Shown here piece after piece: positions 1,735 through 13,720 of a stretch of DNA of 44,364 nucleotides. The stretch covers positions 1-44,364 of the forward strand of contig JAJZVO010000036.1 in assembly GCA_021845665.1 (NCBI GenBank), in the 5' to 3' direction. The notes under the pieces were generated by a model. The model was not told the origin of the DNA and did not search any database. It saw only the letters and a list, made by a program, of their open reading frames with translations. The position numbers were made by a program, and so were the translations under genes. This DNA comes from Bacteroidota bacterium (GTDB taxonomy: Bacteria; Bacteroidota; Ignavibacteria; Kryptoniales; JAKASW01). Numbering within the stretch: the first letter of the stretch is position 1; every line of letters starts with the position of its first letter.

Positions 1735-1766
1735 TTTGACATATTCCGGTAATAATCATAATTTTG
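1735..1766 (+). promoter_or_regulatory. Bacteroidetes-type promoter of the first AbiE-like operon
   Basis: TTTG at 1735-1738 is followed after 20 bases by TAATTTTG at 1759-1766, a full match to the Bacteroidetes -7 element TAnnTTTG with its -33 TTTG. A sigma70-like reading (TTGACA 1736-1741, then TAATTT 1759-1764 after 17 bases) also fits. Transcription would start near 1772, inside the inverted repeat described next. Confidence 0.55.
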
Positions 1767-1807
1767 TAAAGGTTTGTGGAAACCCGGCAACTTTCCACAT
1801 ACCTTTA
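1767..1807. promoter_or_regulatory. Large inverted repeat, probable antitoxin operator
   Basis: TAAAGGTTTGTGGAAA (1767-1782) and TTTCCACATACCTTTA (1792-1807) are reverse complements with one mismatch in 16, separated by 9 bases. The repeat lies directly on the expected start of transcription and ends at the ribosome binding site. AbiEi antitoxins are known to bind inverted repeats in their own promoter and repress it, so an autoregulatory operator is the likely role. An RNA hairpin covering the leader is an alternative. Confidence 0.6.
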
Positions 1808-1825
1808 AAGGAGCAGAGGAACACC

Positions 1826-2596
1826 ACGGCAGACAAATATCTCGACAAATATTACGACGAAATTAAACGCGGACTCGGCAAGGAAAAGCTGTTTTCCGTG
1901 CGAGAAGTCGAGAGGTTGCTGGGACTCAAACCAACTTCAGTCTGGCAGATCCTAAGCCGCCTGACCAGGGAAGGAAGAGTCCATCGGATCAGCAGGGGCA
2001 GATACACGATATCCCCTCAACCTCGACGCAATCCTCCGGTTCCGGAAAGCTCAAGGAAGATTGTCGCCCTTCTCCAGGCAGAAGGCATTCAGTTCACGCT
2101 GACCGGCTTGGATTTGCTTCTGGACTTTGTCCAGCATCAACCAGAAACCCTGTTTCATCTTATCTACACTCCCAGGGGAGCGGGTGAATGGGCACAAAGC
2201 ACTCTCCGTAGCAGCACACTCATGCCTCTATTGGAACCCGGTACCCATGAAATAGAAAATTCAATAGCATCTTCAGAACGGGAGATAATTATCATCCGAG
2301 AACGGCAGAGTCCTGTTGCGTCACAAGAAAATCTGGCGACTAAAGAAAGAGCGTTTGTGGACCTGTACTTTGAATCAACAAGAAGGCTCATTCCCTTTCC
2401 AGTTCAGGAGGTCGCCTATATCTTCGAGAACATGCGATCCACATCCACCCTGAATCAGCCTCAGCTGATAAGGTACGCACATGAACGGAAGATAGACGGA
2501 GAAATAGAAGCTATACTTGAATATCCTAGGGGCAGACTTGCAAGAAGGAATCCAAGGCTTTCATTATTCCTTAAGAGCTTGAAGGCAATTAGATGA
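1826..2596 (+). CDS. AbiEi-like antitoxin / winged-helix regulator, start codon ACG or lost
   Basis: A protein of about 256 residues. An N-terminal winged helix (EKLFSVREVERLLGLKPTSV...LTREGRVHRISRGRYTI) is the pattern of AbiEi-type antitoxins and related regulators paired with nucleotidyltransferase toxins. The rest is a mixed alpha/beta domain of the kind that fills the remaining part of these antitoxins. Its stop overlaps the ATG of the nucleotidyltransferase gene by four bases (ATGA). No ATG, GTG or TTG lies in a sensible place: the only upstream in-frame TTG (1736) is part of the promoter. The best-placed codon is ACG 1826, six bases behind AGAGG (1815-1819), so the gene either uses ACG or has lost its ATG by one T-to-C change. 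The family call is fairly sure; the state of expression is not. Confidence 0.65.
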   Translation, partial: TADKYLDKYYDEIKRGLGKEKLFSVREVERLLGLKPTSVWQILSRLTREGRVHRISRGRYTISPQPRRNPPVPESSRKIVALLQAEGIQFTLTGLDLLLDFVQHQPETLFHLIYTPRGAGEWAQSTLRSSTLMPLLEPGTHEIENSIASSEREIIIIRERQSPVASQENLATKERAFVDLYFESTRRLIPFPVQEVAYIFENMRSTSTLNQPQLIRYAHERKIDGEIEAILEYPRGRLARRNPRLSLFLKSLKAIR

Positions 2597-3765
2597 CCTA
2601 CAAACTGGATAAGCTTGTTCACTCAGAAGAACACTTCGCGGAGGAATACCTGAAGAGCCGGCAGAAAGAATATGGTTTCACACAGCTGACAAAGGTAAAG
2701 ACTTTCCTCTGGGATTTCGAATTACTTGCTCAACTCCAACGAAAGCTCGGTTCCAAGGTTGTCCTTAAAGGTGGTGCAGCTGCTCAACTGTTCTTTCCTC
2801 CAGAGAAGCAGAGAACGAGTGTTGACATTGACGTGATCTATTCAGGCAACGAAGACGAAATGCAACAAGTGTTAGACTCGATTCATTCGGATTTTGGTGA
2901 AGACGACGTATTCTTCAAATTCACGAAGTATATCCCAAAGAGACCAACGAAAGTTCTTCCGCTCCAGACATTCTACGTTGCGGTTCCCGGCGTTCTCGGC
3001 GAGGAAACAAATCAAATTAATATCAAGCTGGACTTTCACATGATCCGCGACACCAAGGTGAAGGTTATCGATCTCAAAGGTGCTGTTGCATTAGGGGTAC
3101 CGTTGGCTTTTGCTCCAAGATGTTTAACTGTCGAGAGCCTGGTAGGTGACAAACTCCTCACGCTGGCAAGGGGAAGTGTCGGTATTCCTCCCGGACGCGA
3201 AGCGGACATTCCAAAGCAGCTATACGATCTGAATGCATTGACGTCGCTGCAAAGGTTCGAGAATTTGGCGCACCTATGGTTAGCCTCCGGCGAATTCTTA
3301 CAGCTTGAGATTTTAAATACTGGCCAGGCAATCGATGAACGGACCGTTTACAGTCAGATCGTTGACACACTTCGGAGATATTCAACTGTGGCAGGGAACG
3401 AGCCTGACAGTGAGGCGCTCAAGGTGCTGAAGGAATTCAGAGGCAACTATGAGCCGCGGCCATTTATGAACATGATCCAATGGGAGACAGTGTGCAAGAG
3501 GCTCGAATACTTTTCCTGGTGCCTCAGAGAGAAATCAGCTGAGGCCATTCGCTTACTAAAACAAGCCGACGCTATGGCCGATCAGATTTCCAGCACGAAG
3601 GATCGTCAGAGCCAGACTAAGAAACTGTTCAGTATTCTCCAATCCCTCAGTCCCTCAGGAAAGATTGGGAGGTTTCGGAATGTCACACCTGAAAGGATCT
3701 TCTGGGAAATCATATCGCTGGATAAAATCACCATCGAAGAAATAAGGTCCGCTCTCACTTCATAG
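2593..3765 (+). CDS. AbiEii-like nucleotidyltransferase (type IV toxin)
   Basis: A 390-residue protein. Residues 55-82 carry the nucleotidyltransferase signature: LKGG (58-61), then about ten residues, then RTSVDIDV with the acidic pair D78 and D80 of the DNA polymerase beta-like fold. A later beta strand (INIKLDFHM) has the third acidic residue. Residues 170-190 (LTVESLVGDKLLTLARG) match the AbiEii helix that contains a conserved Lys, and the DLNAL segment follows. The C-terminal 150 residues are helical and longer than in classical AbiEii. Toxins of this family transfer nucleotides to tRNA ends or other RNA and block growth, in phage defence or element maintenance. It is co-translated with the HTH gene before it (overlap 2593-2596). 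Confidence 0.75.
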   Translation: MTYKLDKLVHSEEHFAEEYLKSRQKEYGFTQLTKVKTFLWDFELLAQLQRKLGSKVVLKGGAAAQLFFPPEKQRTSVDIDVIYSGNEDEMQQVLDSIHSDFGEDDVFFKFTKYIPKRPTKVLPLQTFYVAVPGVLGEETNQINIKLDFHMIRDTKVKVIDLKGAVALGVPLAFAPRCLTVESLVGDKLLTLARGSVGIPPGREADIPKQLYDLNALTSLQRFENLAHLWLASGEFLQLEILNTGQAIDERTVYSQIVDTLRRYSTVAGNEPDSEALKVLKEFRGNYEPRPFMNMIQWETVCKRLEYFSWCLREKSAEAIRLLKQADAMADQISSTKDRQSQTKKLFSILQSLSPSGKIGRFRNVTPERIFWEIISLDKITIEEIRSALTS

Positions 3766-4225
3766 TTCACCTCCTGGGCCCAGACTTTCGGTCGACAACT
3801 GGGCAGCTAATCCTCGAATTCTCCGTGGCACGAATATGGCACTATGGTCATACACTTTCATACTAACCGATACCTCTCCTTGTCAGGCATTTCAGCGAAA
3901 TCAACAAGAAAACGGGTGAATTGATCCCTCTGAAAGCATTGCAGATACCTGTCGCGCAGGAGGCCACAGGCCTTATCCCTTGACACTGTGCGTAACGCCG
4001 AAATCCCGCAATGCATGGTGGATTTTCGCTTATCGCTTATCGACGCCACGACAAACTTACTTAAGCTTATTGATTTCGATAGGTAAAATTGTCGCTGATG
4101 AATTAAACTCAGGAAAGCGTCAGGCGCGTCCCGTGCATTTCGGAGATTGTGACGCCGACAGTTGACGATTGGTTCAAAACCGCCGCACATATTGATAAAG
4201 TGCGGAGGAGCAGAACCAAGGCGTC
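3766..4225. other. Non-coding or decayed stretch between the two defence modules
   Basis: Several short frames exist on both strands, the longest being 110 codons on the minus strand (3858-4190), but none has a ribosome binding site, family signature or convincing codon pattern. No hairpin terminator is visible for either neighbouring gene. It probably holds remnants of an older gene. Confidence 0.4.
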
Positions 4226-4256
4226 CACTTCATGCCCGTTATATGCCCGGTCGCGG
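4226..4256. repeat. 31-bp direct repeat, left copy
   Basis: The block CACTTCATGCCCGTTATATG followed by CCCGGTCGCGG recurs at 8861-8891 with two mismatches in 31. It contains the short tandem ATGCCCG-TTAT-ATGCCCG. It lies 46 bases beyond the stop of the helicase gene, which reads towards it. Confidence 0.8.
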
Positions 4257-4302
4257 ACGGAAAAGTATATCTGAGCTATCCTCCAATCGACCCTGCGCTA
4301 GC

Positions 4303-7272
4303 TCAAAGCCCGACGCTCTTCAACAACTCACTTGCAATGTTGGAACTCTCCAGCCTCATCATGGTCTCCTCAGAAGTGCCGAAGCTCAGAAGGTTTATGC
4401 TTCCATACCAGACAATGCGTTCATCTATGACTGCAAATTTCTGGTGCACACCGGATTTGAATAGCAGATTGACACCATCGTTTCGCAAAATATCTAAGGT
4501 TTCACGCAATTGCGGCCTATCCTTTTCCTTGAAGTCTTCGCATGGCCTCGTCATGATCGCCACCTTGATGTTCTTATCAATCGACCTTCTGAAGTGTTCA
4601 TGGAACTTCATTATCCGCCTTCTCATAACGAAAGGGCTGATTATGAAAATGTTCCCGTATGCATTATCAATGTCGCCGCAGTAAACCGGATAGAAACTGC
4701 TCGTGTCGAAAATGAAATTCGCGGCTTCCGGCGCGGCCGCGCCACCTTTGATTTTATATCCGAAGGAAGCATATCCGTTGAGTCGTTTGTTGTACATCTT
4801 TTCAAACATTCGCACATGCGTGTCGACATAGTCATAGACTTGAACCTCTTTCTTGTTTTCATGTGTTCGGTGTAACCTGCCGACGTATTGTTGTAAAGTC
4901 CCTCTCCAGGAAATTGGCATGGCCAGGAACAGTGTATCGAGACGGGGCTCATCAAAACCTTCACCTATATATTTCCCCGTTGCGACTATAGTCAAAGGAT
5001 TCTGTTGAGGTACATCGGAAATCTTTCTAAGTGCTTCTCTGGTTTGCCTGACCCCGTATTTGCCTGTCAGAGGAATTACATCCGCCATCTTCTCTCTTAT
5101 CTTGCCTGCAAGTGTTTCAACATGGGAGGTCCTTTCAGTCAGCACAAGCGAACTCCTGCCAGCCTCGTAATTCGCAATCACGTCATTGGCTATGAGCCTG
5201 TTCCGCATTTCGCTGGCTGCTAACTCAGAATAGAGCTCTTGGATGCCAGGTTCTTTTCTGTCCGAAACCGATACGTTACTATCAACTGGAATTATAAAAC
5301 TTGTGAATCTTGGAATCACATAATGATCGAACGGCGACTGCTCCAACTGTGTCCTTGTATCCGCTTTGTACCTCATCGGTCCGCAGTGCATGAATATAAT
5401 TGGATGATGCCCGTCCAATCTCACCGGCGTCGCAGTCAACCCGTAAACGTATCTGGCGTGAAGGTTCTTGAGAACCTGCTCAAAAGTGAAGGCAGGGACA
5501 TGGTGGCACTCATCCACAATGACCATTCCATAATACCTTACCCGCTCGGAGATCTCATAGTTTCTGTGCAGAGATTGCATGATTCCGACGTCGACTATAC
5601 GGGTTGGACTATCTATGTCTCCACCAATTTCGCCTATTAGTGAGACTTGCTTCGGTCTCCCGCGCCTCTTCTCCGGTTGAGGGACTTCTTCTTTGATGGT
5701 TAGGAACTCTGATAGCTTCTTTACCCACTGCGAAAGGAGTTGTTTTCTGTGGACTATTACGAGTGTGCTCGTTTTCCTCTCTGCAATCAGTTTTGCAGCT
5801 ACTACAGTTTTGCCGAATGCGGTCGCAGCAGCCAACACGCCGTTATCAAATTTCATTAACTCATTTACTGCCGGAAGCTGTTCATCTCTCAGCGTCCCAT
5901 TAAACCCGATATCGATACTCCTGCCAGGATTGGTTTCGTCTGAAATGGTCGGTTCGACATTAAGTTTGCTCAATAAAGCCTGCACCTCTGCCAAGCAACC
6001 CCTCGGCAGGCAGAGATACTTGTCCGTCTCGTCGGAGCATGAGATGATTCTTGGCTTGTTGTACGTTGGCAAGCGCATCGCCTGGGCTTTATAAAACTCA
6101 GGGTTCTTAAATGCCGCCAACCTTTTTAACGCGTTCAATCCCCTCTGGGAGATGCCCTCCTTCAAAACATAAATCATATTTGCCTTTACAACGCTTGGCT
6201 TCTCTGGGAAATCGTCCTTCTTCAACGAAATTGTCGGCGTTCTCTGCCATGGTCTTTGTGTCTCCGTGTCGTCTCTTCTTAATACCCCAAGATCGTTTCC
6301 GATTCCGAAGATAGAAAGTCTTTTCGTCAATGAACCGATTTCGTCTTCGGATAGTTTCCTCATCGAACTCAAGAAATCCCACTGGTCTGGATACGGTTTC
6401 AATTGCTCATCGATGAAAACGCTGTTCCCCTTCTTCCGCGGTTCCATCTGCAAGGGAAGTGCAATCAGATTTTCGAACCCTCCCTTCGGCATAGTATCCT
6501 GATTGGGAAAGAATCTGTCGTATGACTTGAACCCGATTTCATGCCTCTTGTTCATCGAGTAGGTCAGCAGGGCCGAGCCGAACTTTCGGGCCGAAGCTGC
6601 CGGTATTGGTTCTTCAAAGAAGAACCAGAGGTGAGCGCCGTCGCCTGAACGTGACCGTTCCGCCGCAATGGGGATGTTCAACTCGGAACACACGTTTCTC
6701 AACACCGATATGTCTTTTTGCCAACCGTCATCGTCGAAGTCGATTGCCAGCAAGTAACACGTGTCATCCTGGCACATAGGATATAGTCCGGCTGTGATCT
6801 TTCCACTGAGATGCTCTTCAACGACACTGTCATTCAAAATCTCGAACGACTTGTTACTGCACTCATAGCATTTGATTCGCGGCTTGTTGCAGATGCCGGA
6901 CTTCCATTCGTTGAGGCAGGCAGGCGAGTATCCGGATTTTCCATTTGAATTTTGCCATCTCTTCGCATAGACATCGGTTCTTCCTCTAAAGAGTGACATG
7001 AAGAGATCGATCTTTGCTTCAGATCTACTTTGCTGATTCACTCTTCGATTCGGATTCGTCCTGACTGCGTCGGTTAGAGCATCGTTGGGGATACCGGTTA
7101 TGTTTTCGGGACTCGCCTTTTCAACTTTCCTTGGTGCCAAGTCATTTGGATGATCGAGCGCCGCGAGCTGGGCTTTGAGTGTCTCGACCTCCGCCCTCAG
7201 CCTATCGTTCTCGATTAGCAGGGCCTGATACTTATTCAGAAGCGACAGGACATTTTTCTTGTCAGTCGTCAT
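4303..7272 (-). CDS. TOTE-type conflict protein: archaeo-eukaryotic primase + SF2 helicase + phospholipase D domain
   Basis: A 989-residue protein. Residues 1-45 form a coiled coil. Residues 88-305 match the primase domain of TOTE conflict systems: FRGRTDVYAKRW, a Cys cluster C119, C128, C135, C138 that could bind zinc, catalytic AIDFD with D178 and D180, SGDGAH with H214, and SYDRFFPNQDT..GGFENLIALPLQ. Residues 455-830 are a superfamily 2 helicase: TAFGKT Walker A (K488), VDECHH (587-591), GLTATP (611-616) and YVGRLHR. The C-terminal 110 residues hold a single phospholipase D motif, HQKFAVID (H943, K945, D950). Primase-helicase-nuclease fusions of this sort are placed among anti-phage or anti-plasmid systems. 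It is transcribed away from the divergent AbiE pair 98 bases off, and both lie between direct repeats. The domain call is firm; the defence role is family-based inference. Confidence 0.85.
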   Translation of the reverse strand: MTTDKKNVLSLLNKYQALLIENDRLRAEVETLKAQLAALDHPNDLAPRKVEKASPENITGIPNDALTDAVRTNPNRRVNQQSRSEAKIDLFMSLFRGRTDVYAKRWQNSNGKSGYSPACLNEWKSGICNKPRIKCYECSNKSFEILNDSVVEEHLSGKITAGLYPMCQDDTCYLLAIDFDDDGWQKDISVLRNVCSELNIPIAAERSRSGDGAHLWFFFEEPIPAASARKFGSALLTYSMNKRHEIGFKSYDRFFPNQDTMPKGGFENLIALPLQMEPRKKGNSVFIDEQLKPYPDQWDFLSSMRKLSEDEIGSLTKRLSIFGIGNDLGVLRRDDTETQRPWQRTPTISLKKDDFPEKPSVVKANMIYVLKEGISQRGLNALKRLAAFKNPEFYKAQAMRLPTYNKPRIISCSDETDKYLCLPRGCLAEVQALLSKLNVEPTISDETNPGRSIDIGFNGTLRDEQLPAVNELMKFDNGVLAAATAFGKTVVAAKLIAERKTSTLVIVHRKQLLSQWVKKLSEFLTIKEEVPQPEKRRGRPKQVSLIGEIGGDIDSPTRIVDVGIMQSLHRNYEISERVRYYGMVIVDECHHVPAFTFEQVLKNLHARYVYGLTATPVRLDGHHPIIFMHCGPMRYKADTRTQLEQSPFDHYVIPRFTSFIIPVDSNVSVSDRKEPGIQELYSELAASEMRNRLIANDVIANYEAGRSSLVLTERTSHVETLAGKIREKMADVIPLTGKYGVRQTREALRKISDVPQQNPLTIVATGKYIGEGFDEPRLDTLFLAMPISWRGTLQQYVGRLHRTHENKKEVQVYDYVDTHVRMFEKMYNKRLNGYASFGYKIKGGAAAPEAANFIFDTSSFYPVYCGDIDNAYGNIFIISPFVMRRRIMKFHEHFRRSIDKNIKVAIMTRPCEDFKEKDRPQLRETLDILRNDGVNLLFKSGVHQKFAVIDERIVWYGSINLLSFGTSEETMMRLESSNIASELLKSVGL

Positions 7273-7369
7273 GCCGGGAGTCCGTTTGAAATTTAACGTT
7301 TCCTTCGGGAAGAACGCGAATTTGGCGCAATTGGTTGCAATAATATGTCGATGATGCTAAGTTATTGCC

Positions 7370-8011
7370 ATGGAATTTAAACGACTCGTCAATATTGTCG
7401 ACGATGAACCGGTCTTTGAGACGGGATTTCTGCTGGCAGGAAATGCAGATCCAAAGGATGTGATCCTGCAGCTCTCCCGGTGGACAAAGGCCGGCCGAAT
7501 TTACCAGATTCGGCGTGGACTTTACGCGCTCGCGCCACCGTACCGAAAGGTAAAACCGCATCCGTTCCTCGTGGCGAATCGCATGGTCAGGGCATCCTAT
7601 GTAAGCTGCCAGTCAGCTCTCGAGTTCCACGGATTGATCCCTGAACACACTCCGGTTGTAGTGAGCGTCACGACCTCGCGACCCGGCCGCTGGAAGACGC
7701 CGCTCGGTGTCTTTGAGTTCCGCCATATCAAGAAGACATTATTCTCGGGATATCAATCGGTCGAAGTGGGCAGTGGACAGAACGCCTTTGTTGCCTCTCC
7801 GGAAAAAGCTCTCCTTGACCTTGTCTACCTGCAGCCTGGTGCTGACGACGAATCTTACCTGAGCGAGCTCAGGCTCAAGAACTTCGAGAAACTCGATCCC
7901 GGAATTCTACAAGAATTAGCCGCAAAGTCGGAGAGCCCAAAGCTGGTCAGGGCTGCCAACCTGATTACAGCATTGGCGCGCAAGGAAGCGGAGGAGTACA
8001 GGATGCTATGA
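7370..8011 (+). CDS. abiEi: AbiEi-type antitoxin (type IV toxin-antitoxin)
   Basis: A 213-residue protein with the usual two domains: an N-terminal winged helix (about 15-60; VILQLSRWTKAGRIYQIRRGLYAL) and a C-terminal domain with the family landmarks YVSCQSALEFHGLIPE, VVSVTTSRPGRWKTPLGVFEFRHIK and ASPEKALLDLVYL. AbiEi antitoxins neutralise the partner toxin without stable binding and repress their own promoter. The start ATG 7370 has no clear Shine-Dalgarno sequence, so a short-leader mRNA is possible. Its stop overlaps the ATG of the toxin gene (ATGA, 8008-8011). It is divergent from the TOTE gene and shares a 97-bp promoter region with it, which may coordinate the two. Confidence 0.88.
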   Translation: MEFKRLVNIVDDEPVFETGFLLAGNADPKDVILQLSRWTKAGRIYQIRRGLYALAPPYRKVKPHPFLVANRMVRASYVSCQSALEFHGLIPEHTPVVVSVTTSRPGRWKTPLGVFEFRHIKKTLFSGYQSVEVGSGQNAFVASPEKALLDLVYLQPGADDESYLSELRLKNFEKLDPGILQELAAKSESPKLVRAANLITALARKEAEEYRML

Positions 8012-8820
8012 AAAACTATGTCGCTCAAATCATCCGTGGTGCCGTGACTCCGCTTCAGGCTAGGAACATTGTCAGGGAGTATTTGCAAGCAAGAATCCTT
8101 GGTGCCATGCAACGGTCGGGGGCGATGATACCGCTCTCCTTTCATGGTGGAACAGCATTGCGCTTTCTCTATTCCACTGGCCGCTACTCAGAAGACCTTG
8201 ACTTCACCCTGGAAAAGAACAAGGAGGAATATGACTTCCACAAGTACCTTAACAGCATCAGAAGCGAGCTGACAGCGGAAGGATATGATGTTGGATTCAA
8301 GGTGAGTGACAAAAAAATCGTCCATGCGGCTTTTGTTAACCTGCGTGGACTGTTATTTGAGCTCGGCGTCTCGCCACACAGGGATGAAACCCTTGCTATT
8401 AAGCTCGAAGTCAATACGAATCCACCCGAAGGCGCTGTACTGGCAACCACTGTCATTCGTCGCTATGTGATGCTCCAGCTTCAGCATCACGACAAAGCGT
8501 CCTTTCTCTCCGGAAAACTGCACGCCGTCCTTCAGCGATCTCATCTCAAAGGACGCGACCTTTACGATTTGCTTTGGTATCTGAGTGATCCCAATTGGCC
8601 TTCTCCCAATCTCATCTTACTGAACAATGCCCTGCGACAGACAGGGTGGTCGGGACCTGAATTGTCGGAAGATAATTGGCGCAGTTTAGTGCGGGAAAGA
8701 ATCGACACGATGAGCTGGCAGGCTGTTGTCGACGATGTCCGCCCCTTCCTCGACACGACAGCTGATGCACATTTGCTCACGAGAGAGAATCTGGATCGAT
8801 TGCTGTCTATAAACAGTTGA
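8008..8820 (+). CDS. abiEii: AbiEii-type nucleotidyltransferase toxin
   Basis: A 270-residue protein, close to the usual family length. The signature HGGTALRFLY..GRYSEDLDF runs over residues 46-66, with GG 47-48 and acidic residues D63 and D65. It continues with IKLEVNTNP (third acidic residue) and the helix LSGKLHAVLQRSHLKGRDLYDLLWYL with the conserved Lys and the KGRDLYDLLW block. Toxins of this group are cytosolic nucleotidyltransferases that modify tRNA or related targets. It is translationally coupled to the antitoxin gene and is a canonical member, unlike the longer 2593-3765 protein. A 31-bp direct repeat starts 41 bases beyond its stop. Confidence 0.9.
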   Translation: MKNYVAQIIRGAVTPLQARNIVREYLQARILGAMQRSGAMIPLSFHGGTALRFLYSTGRYSEDLDFTLEKNKEEYDFHKYLNSIRSELTAEGYDVGFKVSDKKIVHAAFVNLRGLLFELGVSPHRDETLAIKLEVNTNPPEGAVLATTVIRRYVMLQLQHHDKASFLSGKLHAVLQRSHLKGRDLYDLLWYLSDPNWPSPNLILLNNALRQTGWSGPELSEDNWRSLVRERIDTMSWQAVVDDVRPFLDTTADAHLLTRENLDRLLSINS

Positions 8821-8860
8821 AGGGTCACGGTTAATGCTGGATCAATCCCGTATGGTGGTA

Positions 8861-8891
8861 CACTCCATGCCCGTTATATGCCCGGTTGCGG
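8861..8891. repeat. 31-bp direct repeat, right copy
   Basis: Matches 4226-4256 in 29 of 31 positions and in the same orientation. The stretch between the copies (about 4.6 kb) contains exactly the TOTE gene and the AbiE pair. Beyond the block similarity fades to a few scattered matches. Confidence 0.8.
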
Positions 8892-9813
8892 GGAGAGAAG
8901 TCCCTATCGCTCACCTCTGACTCTTCCTCAACTAATCCCAAGCTCCACCCGGAAAATAACCACTGTTACTTTACTCGCTCACTCCTACCGGGTGAAGATC
9001 CTTCCAACAAAATGCAACGTGAGATCTTTGGCGCGGGATACCTTACTCTTTCAGGGAGTATCACAAAACGCGGACCTCCGTTGCGAATCATCGCGACTCA
9101 AGGATTTAATCTCCTTCCAGGGTGCTCCATCATTGGTCCTGTCGCCATCTACTCAGCTGATTCGGTTTCGATCCCCTCCGGTGTCAATCTCGTCAACACA
9201 GTTATTTTTTCACCCGCAAGCATTTCGCTTCGACGCGGTGCGAACGTAACTGCCCAACTCTTTTCACCCGTGATACGGTGCGAACCGAACTCTGTAGCGA
9301 ACTATCCCTCGCTATTTGTCTCTGTCAGTCTTTCTGACACTTCAGGTGTGGAGCAGCTCGTGGATATTGCCAGCAATGCGAAGGTATCGGGAGCGATTGT
9401 CTTGCGCGCTGGTCGTGGTATATCCTTGCGGGAGGCACTCATTATGTATCGATGCGATAAACTCTGCCGCTCTGTACTCGAGCAGTGACTCAGCCCTTGT
9501 CCTCGGGACAAGTTCAGGTGACACAACCACGTACAAGTTTTCTCAAAGCAACGTTTGGAGAGACGGCGTCTCTTTCCTGCCCTCGGATTCATCGGGCCAC
9601 GACATTGCAGGTGAAGCGGCCTTGCGTATTACGGCATTCATTGCCTCCTCACTGGATACGGCAACGGGACTTGGATTGCGGGCCAGGCAATGGTACATCC
9701 GCGTCAACGGCAGGCTGGGAGACTTGGCCGATTCATCCATCGTTCGGACGGTATCGATCTTGTCGTCAAGCGATCTGGTCCGGACAGATTTGGCGGAAAC
9801 TCCCACGCAGTGA
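8886..9813 (+). pseudogene. Frameshifted surface or secreted protein, unknown
   Basis: Two open frames appear to be parts of one gene. The first (8886-9488) reads as successive short beta strands rich in V, I, S, G and N (LTLSGSITKRG, SIIGPVAIYSADSVSIPSGVNLVNTVIFSPASISLRRGANVTAQLFSP), a pattern seen in beta-helical or bactofilin-like proteins. The second, in another frame (about 9430-9813), goes on with NSAALYSSSDSALVLGTSS..TYKFSQSNVWRDGVSFL. There is no ribosome binding site, and the frame changes near 9420-9480. No family is recognised. Given the decayed neighbours it is best read as a gene remnant. Confidence 0.4.
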
Positions 9814-10023
9814 GTTTGTGGACTCCTCGCTCCATCTCTTCTAAAGGGAGGAACGAGTTGGCCCACATAGCCACGATAGGTATGGGTGCCTTCAAGAGCC
9901 TGTGATCTGTGGCGCCCGGCAGTGGTGCTCTGTGACTCAGTTGGCGAAGCTATGCAGATTTGGAAAATGTTATAAATGGGAATTGTGAATTGAGCAAACA
10001 GCTTAACTTAGAATTGTTGTTAA
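9814..10023. other. No gene seen
   Basis: Only short frames without signals. The stretch joins the frameshifted gene to the first Rhs fragment and is probably debris of the same locus. Confidence 0.4.
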
Positions 10024-10226
10024 CAACACGTAGCAGCTCCAGCAGAACGCAATCATCACTGGACTGCAGACAGCAAAACGACGACGACTTCCTCGACAAT
10101 AAATTGCCCATATTCGGAGGATGGCACGTACCAGGTCGCGGTGAGGTACTGGGACAATGACGGCCAGGCGGGCAATGTGGTGGTGATGACGGTTACAATC
10201 GGTCCGGGCCCGACATATTATTATCT

Positions 10227-10251
10227 GTCGAAGATCCCGCGCTTCGCGGGA
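10227..10251. repeat. 25-nt palindromic insert, copy 1
   Basis: GTCGAAG followed by the hairpin TCCCGCG-CTT-CGCGGGA (10235-10251). Read through in the Rhs frame it adds SKIPRFAG in front of KDHLGSVR. A near copy (23 of 25) lies at 10554-10578. Confidence 0.7.
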
Positions 10252-10386
10252 AAAGACCACCTGGGAAGTGTGAGGATGACGATCGACGCAAAGGGTAACG
10301 TGGCCAGCTATGACAACTACTACCCGTTCGGCGAGATAATGCCCGGACTGAGCAGCAACACCGCCATTGCCGATGCAAAGTATAAA

Positions 10387-10440
10387 TTGAGGCATCAATA
10401 TTATGAAATATATGTTGCCGAAATCCATCTTCGAAGCGGA
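10387..10440. repeat. 54-nt in-frame insert in Rhs, copy 1
   Basis: Exactly 18 codons between Rhs residues YK and TSKE, read LRHQYYEIYVAEIHLRSG. The same-length, related insert occurs at the same Rhs codon position at 12440-12493; 38 of 54 bases match, including a 22-base identical block around the GTTGCC core. Confidence 0.75.
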
Positions 10441-10490
10441 CTCACCTCCAAGGAACTCTATTCAGAGACCGGCCTCTATTACGGAGTTTA

Positions 10491-10527
10491 TCCCGCCGGA
10501 GACCGCCAAAGGCGGCCTTTGGCGGGA
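10491..10527. repeat. Compound CCCGCC/GGCGGG palindrome in Rhs
   Basis: The outer arms TCCCGCC (10491-10497) and GGCGGGA (10521-10527) enclose an inner hairpin CCGCC-AAA-GGCGG-type (10503-10515). It splits the Rhs motif YYG/ARYY and causes the frameshift of this fragment. Confidence 0.7.
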
Positions 10528-10553
10528 GCGCCCGCTACTACAACGCCTGGGCC

Positions 10554-10578
10554 GTCGAAGATCCTGCGCTTCACGGGA
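10554..10578. repeat. 25-nt palindromic insert, copy 2
   Basis: Matches 10227-10251 in 23 of 25 bases; the two differences are C to T and G to A in the stem (TCCTGCG-CTT-CACGGGA). In the frame used by the Rhs tail it is read EDPALHG, a different frame from copy 1. Confidence 0.7.
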
Positions 10579-10700
10579 GCCGCTGGATGAGCGTAGACCC
10601 GCTGGCAAATAAGTACCCGGGGTGGATCCCGTCATAAAGGGCATCATTGACAATGAGCTTCGCTTGTGAATCGATTTGGGAATAGGTAATTTCATGAGAA

Positions 10701-11009
10701 ATGATGGCGGAAATTCGGCAGAAGATTTCTGCGGGCAAGTTCGAGTTTTCTAAACATGGCGTGGACCAGAGTATCATACGCAACATCGGAGTCGAAGAAA
10801 TCCGCGAAGCGGTTTCAACGGGAGAGATTATCGAAGATTATCCTGATGACAAATACGGGCCGAGCTGCCTGGTCTACGGAAGGACTAATCTTGGGAGACC
10901 GATTCATATCCACTGCAGCTATCCGGCAAGGGATTATTTGAAGATAATGACCGTATACGAACCCGACGCGGAATCATGGGAGGGTTTTAAAGCAAGGAAG
11001 AATGTATGA
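10701..11009 (+). CDS. DUF4258 protein, probable RNase-like toxin
   Basis: A 102-residue protein with the DUF4258 pattern: KFEFSKHGVDQSIIRNIGVEEIREAVSTGEIIEDYPDDKYGPSCLVYG near the N-terminus, then RPIHIHCSY and YLKIMTVYEPD. DUF4258 proteins share the fold of RelE/MqsR-type toxins and are normally followed by a YgiT-type antitoxin, as here (stop and start overlap in ATGA, 11006-11009). An adjacent second ATG at 10704 could also be used; the ribosome binding site is weak (GAGAA). The pair lies between two Rhs fragments, so it may be a toxin-antitoxin cassette that landed in a decaying Rhs locus. The family call is good; activity is inferred. Confidence 0.75.
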   Translation: MMAEIRQKISAGKFEFSKHGVDQSIIRNIGVEEIREAVSTGEIIEDYPDDKYGPSCLVYGRTNLGRPIHIHCSYPARDYLKIMTVYEPDAESWEGFKARKNV

Positions 11010-11233
11010 AAGCTTACGAGGAACATCTCGTGGATAAGCGTGTGACTTACACACTGGAGATCGAGGGCAAATTCTACGTTGTAGAGAATGTGCCTGCCAG
11101 GGTCAACGAAGAGACCGGTGAACAGTACTTCGCGCCATCGACTGTGGAGCAACTTCGCGAGAAGGTAAAGGGGCAACAGAAACCTGACAAGGTGATTGAA
11201 ACGCCCGTCTATATATTCGACGACTTGGCATGA
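11006..11233 (+). CDS. YgiT-like antitoxin lacking the zinc-finger cysteines
   Basis: A 75-residue protein starting inside the stop of the DUF4258 gene. The segment VTYTLEIEGKFYVVENVPARVNEETGEQYFAPSTVEQLREKV matches the core of YgiT-type zinc-finger antitoxins, in which the corresponding part reads VENVPARVC..CGE.YF. In this protein the second Cys pair is replaced (NEETGE), and the N-terminal Cys pair is also absent; no cysteine is left at all. The tail ends in KVIETPVYIFDDLA and carries no DNA-binding HTH. It probably still binds the toxin through the beta hairpin, but cannot coordinate zinc. Identification rests on the core motif and on its position. Confidence 0.65.
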   Translation: MKAYEEHLVDKRVTYTLEIEGKFYVVENVPARVNEETGEQYFAPSTVEQLREKVKGQQKPDKVIETPVYIFDDLA

Positions 11234-12071
11234 TGGTCCGCACTTGCCGCGTTTGACCTCCAAGGATCTCGACGCCGAAACCGGCCTGTACCACTTGGGC
11301 GTGAGGTCCTACGATCCGTGGAGCGGAAGATTCATTGGCGTCGACACGTTCGCAAGCGACAGCACGCTTGCTCCATGGTCGCCTTAACAGTATTCGTTCG
11401 ATAATCCCATCAGGTTCAAGGATCCTACAGGAAAGTGGCCGGGATTTGCAGCCAATCTTGCGAATGCTTTTACCAGCTGGATGTACAACGAGATTCACGG
11501 TGCCACCAGCACATTGTTTAGTGCAATGAAGGCCAACTACACAGCTAATTTTTCACCGTCGAATTCCGCGGCGACGAAGGCAGTATACGAAAGGGTGGGC
11601 CCAGTCGCAATGGCAACAGCGCCTTCTTCGATATCTGCGATGCAGCTGAACGTGTTTTCAGACTTCTCGTACGCAGAAGGTCTTGGGGCCGCCACGGGCG
11701 CAGGCGTTGCGATTACTGCCGGAGTTCTGTCGGCTGATCCACTGCTAGTGCCATTCCAACTAATTTTACCAAACAACGTGCAGGTAAAATTATCGTTGGA
11801 ATGAGCATCCCGCCCGCTTTTGGCGAGACCAAGTTAGCAAATGATAGTTGGATGGGCACTAGGTATAGGTGTAGCAGACGTGAAAGGGAGTTACCAGCTG
11901 TTCAATGACGTGAAATCAGGCTCCGGTACCTTGAATGTTCAAGTGACTAGTGGACTTGGCCTCACCTCTTATTTCACTAAGGTACCCATAGGTCCTCTCT
12001 ACGGCGGCGCGAATTGGGGTAGCGAACTGTTCCAGCACTTCGTTCCGCCACCAAAACCCTCAAACTTCTAG
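11230..12071 (+). pseudogene. Rhs C-terminal fragment 2 with toxin-like tail, nonsense and repeat insertion
   Basis: One frame carries LTSKDLDAETGLYHLGVRSYDPWSGRFIGVDTFA...APWSP, a stop TAA at 11385-11387, then QYSFDNPIRFKDPTGKWPGFAANLANAF. The expected sequence at the stop is WSPYQYS, so it looks like a Tyr codon changed to TAA. The tail is a variable Rhs tip with small hydrophobic stretches (GLGAATGAGVAITAGVL, VGWALGIGVADVKGSYQLFNDV) and no recognised toxin domain. Hairpin repeat copy B (11746-11830) sits inside this tip and brings stops at 11802 and about 11835, after which the same frame runs on to TAG 12069-12071. Confidence 0.65.
11746..11830. repeat. Double-hairpin dispersed repeat, copy B
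   Basis: Same flanks as copy A at 1143-1230. Arms CATTCCAACTAATTTTACC and GGTAAAATTATCGTTGGAATG pair over 19 bp with two bulged bases on the 3' arm, and the loop is 12 nt as in copy A. The second hairpin (ATCCCGCC..GGCGAGA) is imperfect. It interrupts the Rhs tip. Confidence 0.75.
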
Positions 12072-12083
12072 GAGCACCCTACA

Positions 12084-12359
12084 TTGGAACCTCAGGACAA
12101 GAAACTGTTGATCGGGTATATCATTGCATTTACGGAAGTTGGGATCACATTTGCAATGGTCTTCACGCTTTACCGTTTTGGTGGATACTCATTCATCGTC
12201 GGAGGAATACTGTTCTTTCTCCTGAGGTTATTCATTCCCGATGGGTTCCCAGAAACATCGTGGCTGTGGAGCTCGGACGTTCTGCGATCAAGAACTCTGC
12301 AGGGAGCCATCTTATTTGTCGCGGTTGGTTTACTGAGTCTGATCCTCCACGGATTTTAG
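12084..12359 (+). CDS. Small three-TM membrane protein, possible immunity protein
   Basis: A 91-residue protein beginning with TTG 12084, nine bases behind AGGAG (12070-12074) that overlaps the end of the Rhs fragment. Three hydrophobic segments are visible: LIGYIIAFTEVGITFAMVFTLY, FIVGGILFFLLRLFIP, and GAILFVAVGLLSLILHGF. No family is recognised. In Rhs loci the gene directly behind the toxin tip is usually the cognate immunity gene, and membrane immunity proteins are common, so that is the leading guess. The frame is intact although its presumed toxin partner is broken. Confidence 0.5.
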   Translation: MEPQDKKLLIGYIIAFTEVGITFAMVFTLYRFGGYSFIVGGILFFLLRLFIPDGFPETSWLWSSDVLRSRTLQGAILFVAVGLLSLILHGF

Positions 12360-12430
12360 GCCGATTCTTTTCTCTGAATCGAAAGTGACTTGCCAGACCA
12401 CTCGTTAGGAGGTGGCCTGCCAAGTGCGGC

Positions 12431-12577
12431 AGGTATAAATTGAGGCATCCATAAATGGAAATATATGTTGCCGAAATCCCGTCCTTGGCGGGATTCACAG
12501 GCAAGGAGCGTGATGTCGAAACGGGGTTGGACTATTTTGGCGCCCGGTACTACGATTACTACCGCTTGAATCATTAG
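12431..12577 (+). pseudogene. Rhs fragment 3 (FTGKERDVETGLDYFGARYYD)
   Basis: A short piece with the hallmark Rhs string: RYK, an 18-codon insert, then FTGKERDVETGLDYF and GARYYDYYRLNH before TAG 12575-12577. The insert carries a TAA, so the frame is dead. A GC palindrome (CCTGCC-aagtgc-GGCAGG) lies just in front, at about 12417-12434. No further Rhs sequence follows. Confidence 0.7.
12440..12493. repeat. 54-nt in-frame insert in Rhs, copy 2
   Basis: Eighteen codons between RYK and FTGKE, at the same Rhs position as 10387-10440. It is read LRHP-stop-MEIYVAEIPSLAG. The end forms a hairpin (ATCCCGTC-ctt-GGCGGGAT). Confidence 0.75.
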
Positions 12578-12914
12578 CTTATTTCTTGTCGGCACCTGGG
12601 TAGACGTCTTACGAGACGGTTGATTCAATAAACATGATTCTACGTGGACTGTGACTATTTAATAAGCCTCCTCACCTCCTCCCAAAGAATGCGCCCTGTG
12701 CTCGCAATCTTGAATTAAAGCGTGCCTACCTGGTCAAATATCTTCATTAGGTGCAGCGAGAATTATCTGGATTTGATTTCTCGTTTGGCTTTGGCGTATC
12801 GGTAGCCGGAAATTTGGAGTTTTCACCGAAGTCAGATAAGCACATTCCAACATCGAGCGAATTTTAGCCGCGTGAAACAATAGTACTGATTAAGCACACT
12901 GTAGGAATACCGGT
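12578..12914. other. No gene seen
   Basis: AT-rich stretch without a credible frame, tRNA or strong hairpin. It separates the Rhs debris from the small gene at 12915. Confidence 0.4.
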
Positions 12915-13163
12915 ATGAAAATTAAGAATTGGATCAAATACGAGCATGATGTTTACAGCGCATCCCTGGCCGACATCAGCTTCGAGCAGGATTCACTCGT
13001 TACTCAGGGCGGCCGGGCCAGATATGAAATCTCCATCGTCTCAGCCGATGCCAAGAGTTTCCTTGCCGAAGCCACTGCTGTCGTCGACTTCAACGGCGAC
13101 GGCCGATACAACGTGTGGTCTGTCGACCAGACTGGCGACATCGTGCAGAAAGTGCCGGACTGA
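12915..13163 (+). CDS. Small protein resembling the C-terminal half of a type IV pilin-like protein
   Basis: An 82-residue protein. AGGAA (12907-12911 region) precedes ATG 12915. The tail ATAVVDFNGDGRYNVWSVDQTGDIVQKVPD matches the last strand and loop of type IV pilin or pseudopilin-like proteins, in which a D-x-D-G-D-G/FNVW..D motif ends the globular head. The hydrophobic N-terminal pilin helix and prepilin cleavage site are absent, so this is either a truncated copy or a free head domain. Nearby sequence shows no upstream half. The assignment rests on the tail motif alone. Confidence 0.45.
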   Translation: MKIKNWIKYEHDVYSASLADISFEQDSLVTQGGRARYEISIVSADAKSFLAEATAVVDFNGDGRYNVWSVDQTGDIVQKVPD

Positions 13164-13196
13164 GAAAAGGTATGCGCCGTGCAAAAACAAGTAAGA

Positions 13197-13252
13197 AGTC
13201 ATTGCGAGGGGTCCGCCCGTAGATGAAATGGGCGGACGACGTGGCCATCCCC
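13197..13252. repeat. Dispersed palindrome of the GTCATTGCGAGG type
   Basis: GTCATTGCGAGGG (from 13198) leads into a perfect stem GTCCGCCC (13211-13218) / GGGCGGAC (13230-13237) with an 11-nt loop, followed by GACGTGGCCATCCCC. Palindromes opening with GTCATTGCGAGG and closing with GCAATCCC-like ends are widespread intergenic repeats in several bacterial phyla. It lies between the small pilin-like gene and the tRNA. Confidence 0.6.
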
Positions 13253-13720
13253 GCCATTTTTCCACTAACCTTGGGATCGCCACTCCCGATCTCGCTGACG
13301 CGTGGCCGGGATCGCGATGATAGGTACTCTTGGGACGGCCTCAAGGAGCTCTGTCATTGAATTTTCTTATTGAGATTCTGTTGTGCCTTTCGCTCGGTAG
13401 CTTCGCCAACGTCTGCATCTATGGGATTCCCGGGATCTCCGCCGATATTCCGCGAGCTGAGTCGAGCCTTGAAACCAGCGGTCTGTGTCGAGTATATTGG
13501 ACGTGATGCATGAGGGATTGATCGGAGGGCTCGATTCGCAAAGTCGTGTCCATATCCGACGGCGGTTGCGCCGGAGCATGCTGGATTTGCCTGAGAAGGG
13601 AAACATGGACAAGGTGACTCTTTCTTCCGATTATCTTCCGATGCCGAAAGACAAATTCGCATCGAAGAGCCCCTGCTGTAGGGTCACGAAGTCGAATCGA
13701 AATGAAGTGGGGGATTATTG
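13253..13720. other. No gene seen between the palindrome and tRNA-Lys
   Basis: Frames up to about 100 codons occur on both strands but have no signals and no recognisable product. This is the stretch next to the tRNA 3' end where an integration junction would be expected. No second copy of the tRNA 3' end was found in the window. Confidence 0.4.

Follow-up and report, generated by a model that had tools for sequence, protein, structure and literature searches.

The TOTE gene and AbiE gene pair of the window, by which we mean the whole 44,364-bp stretch of DNA analyzed, probably form a 4.6-kb passenger module that lacks an integrase, is flanked by attachment (att) sites and, in the manner of a CIME, lies beside an integrase element, with the direct repeats at its two ends serving as the att cores of an integrase. 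Copies of the repeat mark a recombination site that related genomes have at several chromosomal places, either unoccupied or holding other toxin-antitoxin genes, and the trio therefore resembles a passenger inserted by a phage-type integrase. The original prediction had taken the repeats for possible attachment or recombination sites, which the empty sites and the other cargo at the same core support. It had also proposed a small defence cassette, which holds for an att-bounded module but not for a self-contained one; an integrase-less module beside an integrase-type element end is the better description.

Direct Repeats Enclose the TOTE and AbiE Genes

The window is contig C18 of a draft genome of 4.64 Mb (G000, the own genome below). 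The features in and around the module are the following.

1736–3765, plus strand: second AbiE-like pair, a DUF6577/AbiEi_4 protein and an AbiEii, forming a neighboring module (profile searches)
3956–4230, minus strand: remnant of an integrase-bearing element's end, with no integrase gene left (DNA comparison)
4171–4217, minus strand: predicted two-part hairpin, GGTTC/GAACC and CCGCAC/GTGCGG, conserved
4226–4256, minus strand: repeat A, putative attachment-site core at the TOTE end of the module (exact part 4231–4251)
4303–7272, minus strand: TOTE protein, 989 aa (PF22548, E 2e-103; PF04851; PF13091)
7273–7369, no strand: 97-bp intergenic region between the divergent TOTE gene and AbiE pair (ORF coordinates)
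7370–8011, plus strand: AbiEi-type antitoxin, 213 aa (PADLOC AbiEi, E 4e-57)
8008–8820, plus strand: AbiEii nucleotidyltransferase toxin, 270 aa (PF08843, E 2e-23; PADLOC AbiEii, E 5e-63)
8861–8891, minus strand: repeat B, putative attachment-site core at the AbiEii end of the module (exact part 8866–8886)

Repeats A and B lie in direct orientation and match at 29 of 31 positions, as first reported, with a longest exact run of 21 bp (4231–4251 and 8866–8886; CATGCCCGTTATATGCCCGGT) and 84% identity over a 44-bp stretch. The distance from the stop codon of TOTE, the helicase of the original prediction, to repeat A is 46 bp, in agreement with the earlier figure, and that from the AbiEii stop to repeat B, earlier given as 41 bases, measures 40 bp. 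The ORF list and profile searches place exactly three genes between the repeats (TOTE, AbiEi, and AbiEii), again as predicted. With up to three mismatches allowed, an 18-mer of the core matched twice in the window and never in 100 dinucleotide shuffles; the chance expectation of the repeat core in the window is zero.

Read along the minus strand, the order is decayed RHS-like DNA, repeat B (8891–8861), AbiEii, AbiEi, the divergent intergenic region, TOTE, repeat A (4256–4226), a match of ∼275 bp to an element end, and the second AbiE-like pair, with AbiEii and AbiEi transcribed towards repeat B. This second pair, with its DUF6577 antitoxin-like protein, lies directly beyond repeat A. At 10141–12560 the window contains repeated fragments resembling the C-termini of RHS/YD-repeat proteins (families D3 and D9, apparently decayed as judged by eye), and at 11742–11862 a repeat of ∼120 bp with arms CCATTCCAAC...GTTGGAATG, of which a divergent version lies at 1143–1210. 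More than 10 copies of the ∼120-bp repeat, 96–98% identical, are present in the own genome, and several members of the genus have additional ones.

The Cargo Genes Are Under Purifying Selection

TOTE combines an AEP primase domain (residues 87–313), an SF2 helicase and a C-terminal PLD nuclease, the fusion that characterizes TOTE conflict systems. It scores 345 bits against PF22548 (cut-off 27), also matches ResIII and PLDc_2, and retains intact SF2 helicase motifs (AATAFGKT and DECH) and the HxKxxxxD motif of the C-terminal phospholipase-D nuclease. The AbiEii start overlaps the AbiEi stop by 4 bp (8008–8011), the gene overlap typical of AbiE type IV toxin-antitoxin systems. Purifying selection acts on all three cargo genes: dN/dS is 0.14–0.19 for TOTE against relatives, where calculable, and, against full-length relatives in genomes having repeat B, ∼0.14 for AbiEi and ∼0.06–0.07 for AbiEii.

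From its domains and Pfam family name we infer that TOTE is an anti-invader nuclease-helicase-primase, which would attack invading DNA, while AbiE may add abortive-infection or addiction functions. AbiE pairs have been reported to confer phage resistance and to stabilize mobile elements (PMC3985639), and the ICE SXT carries a toxin-antitoxin pair that limits loss of that element (PMC2654960). Given these reports of stabilization, the suggestion of the original prediction that the AbiE pair may help to hold the module in place is, by analogy, a reasonable one.

The Core Is a Low-Copy Sequence Found Empty and Filled

We searched for the core in 13 genomes of the genus, all Candidatus Kryptoniota MAGs, and in seven sister-family genomes; all are draft MAGs. 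In the own genome a 20-mer core with up to three mismatches matched four times and a reversed control pattern not at all; two matches are the window repeats and two are single “empty” copies, each on another contig. Across the genus there are 20 clear copies, spread over 8 of the 13 genomes with at most four in any one; the core was not found in G008 or G006, both nearly complete, and the seven sister-family genomes contain none. With only four copies in its genome, the core is not a high-copy repeat, and the many scattered copies that the original prediction had named as counter-evidence hardly apply. The repeat and its left arm matched no Rfam family. A phage- or plasmid-like vehicle was rejected: a search of the IMG/VR viral contigs gave neither the exact core nor a close integrase.

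Two chromosomal sites can be followed between genomes. Site 1 is flanked on the left by dehydrogenase-gene DNA and on the right by a gene for a protein of 157–163 aa and two response regulators. It is empty, with a single core between these flanks, in the own genome (G000:C49) and in G001:C45; in G012 the contig begins immediately left of the core. The site is split in G011: the left flank, which over 3.8 kb shares 95% identity with its G000 counterpart, leads through the core into an AbiE pair on C8, and on C4 the right flank is preceded by a core with slight decay and, before it, foreign DNA. This right junction recurs in G005:C216, whose left side has a 57-bp element end (...GCTCGAACTCGCG) in common with G011:C4 but different cargo, judged by eye to be methyltransferase- and ATPase-like genes. 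At site 2 the own genome shows the empty state, with a single degenerate core on G000:C60; in G001:C45 a tyrosine integrase gene follows 0.5 kb after the core, and in G010:C61 the core forms the right junction. When the attB, attL and attR versions of site 1 are aligned, CGCGACCGGGCATATAACGGGCATG is common to them, with a few substitutions in some copies, and the arms differ on both sides, as expected for integrase attachment sites. The original prediction had pointed to lone copies and to other cargo as telltale signs; single-copy sites do occur, the own genome alone having two, and in relatives different cargo adjoins the same site.

For the insertion in the window itself, an empty counterpart did not turn up, because repeat B is flanked by decayed RHS-like DNA and position 1 is the contig end. 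The right-hand flank (8890–13400) consists of lineage-specific debris and yielded no ortholog beside B. In these draft MAGs we saw no circle, excised form or attP junction; excision would be expected to yield a circle.

Homology Between Modules Breaks at the Core

On the AbiE side, homology between the window, G003, G005:C195, and G001:C41 starts at the core and continues at 84–98% identity over 1.6–4.9 kb, whereas left of the core the DNA is unrelated beyond ∼20 bp. A PIN-toxin module of G002 starts at the core in two unlinked places (96% identity over 1.0 kb). The DNA before the integrase-side end varies, being TOTE in the window, G003, and G010, an AbiE-like pair in G002, site 1 in G011, and site 2 in G001. 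Locus L059 of G002, with cores at 3912 and 10100, contains a further core-bounded module of 6.2 kb whose cargo is a PIN-domain toxin, an AbiE-like pair and a 986-aa protein that by eye resembles a helicase.

The interior of the module also varies. G003 has the complete repeat-AbiE-TOTE-repeat unit; in G001 and G005 the repeat is followed by AbiE alone or by AbiE and half of TOTE, G001 having AbiE without TOTE, and G010 has lost AbiEii and repeat B. TOTE also occurs away from cores, beside an AbiE decayed by deletions in G002, at 71% identity and in a different gene order in G004, and in other Bacteroidota; its close homologs are in MAGs of Candidatus Kryptoniota or Bacteroidetes. G003, with its complete unit, speaks for the att-flanked reading. 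Relatives with the genes but without the repeats had been named as a sign against the cassette; this sign does not weigh heavily here, but G002 and G004, with TOTE but no repeats, limit any claim that the genes always travel with the repeats.

Ordinary short repeats dispersed in the genome could in principle give such a pattern if genes turned over by RecA-type homologous recombination between copies and no integrase took part. Several copies do share a left arm of 100–176 bp, including the 3′ half of a tRNA-Asp gene, which is long enough for homologous exchange. However, in G005:C216, G011:C4, G001:C41, and the two window copies the stretch in common with most others is only ∼20–45 bp long, and homology breaks there all the same. 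Integrase genes or fragments, moreover, lie within 3 kb of 5 of the 20 cores where ∼0.24 would be expected from match density, a figure that is only indicative since integrases cluster in islands. We therefore regard this explanation as unlikely for the system as a whole, although homologous recombination could account for some of the rearrangement at those cores that have the common arm.

A Candidate Integrase and Its Element End

The reading as integrase att cores has a candidate enzyme in a subfamily (subfamily 1) of tyrosine integrases that, within the genus, occurs only in G001 (368 aa) and G002 (357 aa; Phage_integrase family). The two proteins are 69% identical to each other, and all other full-length matches in the genus are at most 43% identical to them. 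Their genes lie 0.5 kb (G001) and 2 kb (G002) from a core, and from this position only we infer that the integrase acts on the core. The core has no clear dyad of integrase arms (best 7/10). The own genome contains no close integrase gene (best match 40%), and the module is accordingly best seen as a passenger.

The core-side ends of the G001 and G002 integrase elements match the window DNA next to repeat A, where the remnant at 3956–4230 shares 77–78% identity with the core-integrase stretch of G001:C45 and with the G003 A-side. The predicted hairpin at 4171–4217 is kept in all six integrase-side element ends compared, with no covariation or compensatory changes among the six loci.

Two site-specific systems other than a phage-type integrase were weighed against these data. 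In the first, each defence module would be an independent, integron-like cassette, and the core a cassette recombination site through which a dedicated integrase shuffles modules. It would account for the AbiE-TOTE, PIN toxin-helicase-AbiE, and AbiE-integrase modules that lie between cores in one orientation, and for the mixing of left and right partners between genomes. But the conserved core lacks a partner inverted repeat and forms no folded site of the attC type with R″ and R′ boxes; the repeat strands fold no better than shuffles (around B, z is 0.72 and 1.02; a lower value around repeat A comes from the neighboring hairpin); the G002 integrase scores 86.8 bits against the NCBIfam integron model integrase_gron, far from its cut-off of 265; and module interiors vary, so that the units are not fixed. 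True integron gene cassettes are thus rejected, and we consider this explanation very unlikely. In the second, the modules would be of the Xer/dif type and recombined by XerC and XerD of the host, as the toxin-antitoxin content and short end sites of the modules, reminiscent of Acinetobacter dif modules (PMC13141974), might suggest. Yet the core matches a dif consensus at 12 of 27 positions at best, and dedicated integrase genes lie at cores; an XerC/XerD-type site at the module ends is rejected and the explanation is scarcely credible.

Relics of tRNA-Asp Accompany Many Cores

Many cores are accompanied by the longer left arm (100–176 bp) with the reverse-strand tRNA-Asp 3′ half; this arm is 98.5–98.9% identical between two loci of G010. 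The common arm suggests that the core site descends from a tRNA-Asp attachment site. The tRNA-Asp 3′ half lies ∼100 bp left of the core at loci L059, L065, L068, L071, L073, L077, and L078, and at L068, L077, and L078 differing short hairpins replace the T-loop. The sequence GGGCATATAACGGGG, which echoes the core, occurs ∼100 bp beyond a tRNA-Asp gene in the own genome (L070:5031–5050) and beside a truncated tRNA-Asp 3′ half in G002 (L060, near 955).

Discussion

In the mechanism that we propose for the att-flanked passenger module, the core of ∼25 bp, CGCGACCGGGCATATAACGGGCATG on the minus strand, would be the attachment site at which a phage-type tyrosine integrase, encoded beside the core in two sister genomes, recombines its element with the chromosome at several sites, attP × attB recombination taking place within the core. 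Repeated insertion at an occupied core would build tandem modules, each bounded by cores, and loss of the integrase genes would leave them fixed. The module in the window abuts the end of an integrase-type element, from which the integrase gene is missing as well. Because neither the module nor the adjoining end has an integrase, it would move only through one supplied from elsewhere or when carried along by its neighbor, as a CIME is. A variant that we consider possible but rather improbable is that a genus-specific tyrosine integrase shuffles individual defence and toxin-antitoxin modules among a few dispersed tRNA-Asp-relic sites, much like an integron with double-stranded att sites.

In this module, the turnover of TOTE and AbiE genes has a concrete vehicle that can be put to the test. 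Now that the site is defined, empty and filled loci are named and there is a candidate integrase, gain and loss of defence genes become trackable, and a TOTE gene can evidently sit on a very small att-bounded module beside an AbiE pair, a possible addiction or abortive-infection partner. In the literature on TOTE conflict systems and on Kryptoniota mobile elements we found no paper describing such a module; the kind of system is known, and the present family, site and cargo appear undescribed.

Among known systems, the module is best placed with CIMEs, as defined in PMC5704250, that have accreted to a second element. It has direct repeats of the attL/attR type (29/31), whose core forms both junctions of filled sites elsewhere; between them are only TOTE, AbiEi, and AbiEii, with no integration or transfer genes of its own; and, as in tandem ICE/IME accretion, it stands in a tandem of modules and abuts an integrase-type end that probably uses the same core. 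Unlike the CIMEs and ICE/IME islands described there, it measures only 4.6 kb, carries pure defence and toxin-antitoxin cargo, uses a site that occurs at several chromosomal places with tRNA-Asp relics instead of an intact target gene, and has no conjugation genes that we could identify.

The ssrA-specific islands of Dehalococcoides (PMC3146451) resemble it in their tandem arrangement, direct repeats of ∼20 bp, strain-varying cargo and an integration module present in some only, but they use CcrB-like serine recombinases at one ssrA locus, as opposed to the putative tyrosine integrase and several sites here. PAISt of Streptomyces turgidiscabies (PMC4057263) has a tyrosine recombinase, as we propose for the present system, and excises in modules through internal and flanking direct repeats; it differs in being a large conjugative island with an 8-bp palindromic site in bacA. 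The Acinetobacter dif modules (PMC13141974) share the shuffling of toxin-antitoxin modules between short recombination sites, but there the host XerC/XerD act on pdif sites, mostly on plasmids, whereas the present core does not match the dif consensus. Finally, the AbiE pair has the bicistronic organization of AbiE type IV toxin-antitoxin systems, an antitoxin followed by a nucleotidyltransferase toxin (PMC3985639), and differs from those described in that the predicted pair diverges from a TOTE gene inside an att-bounded module.
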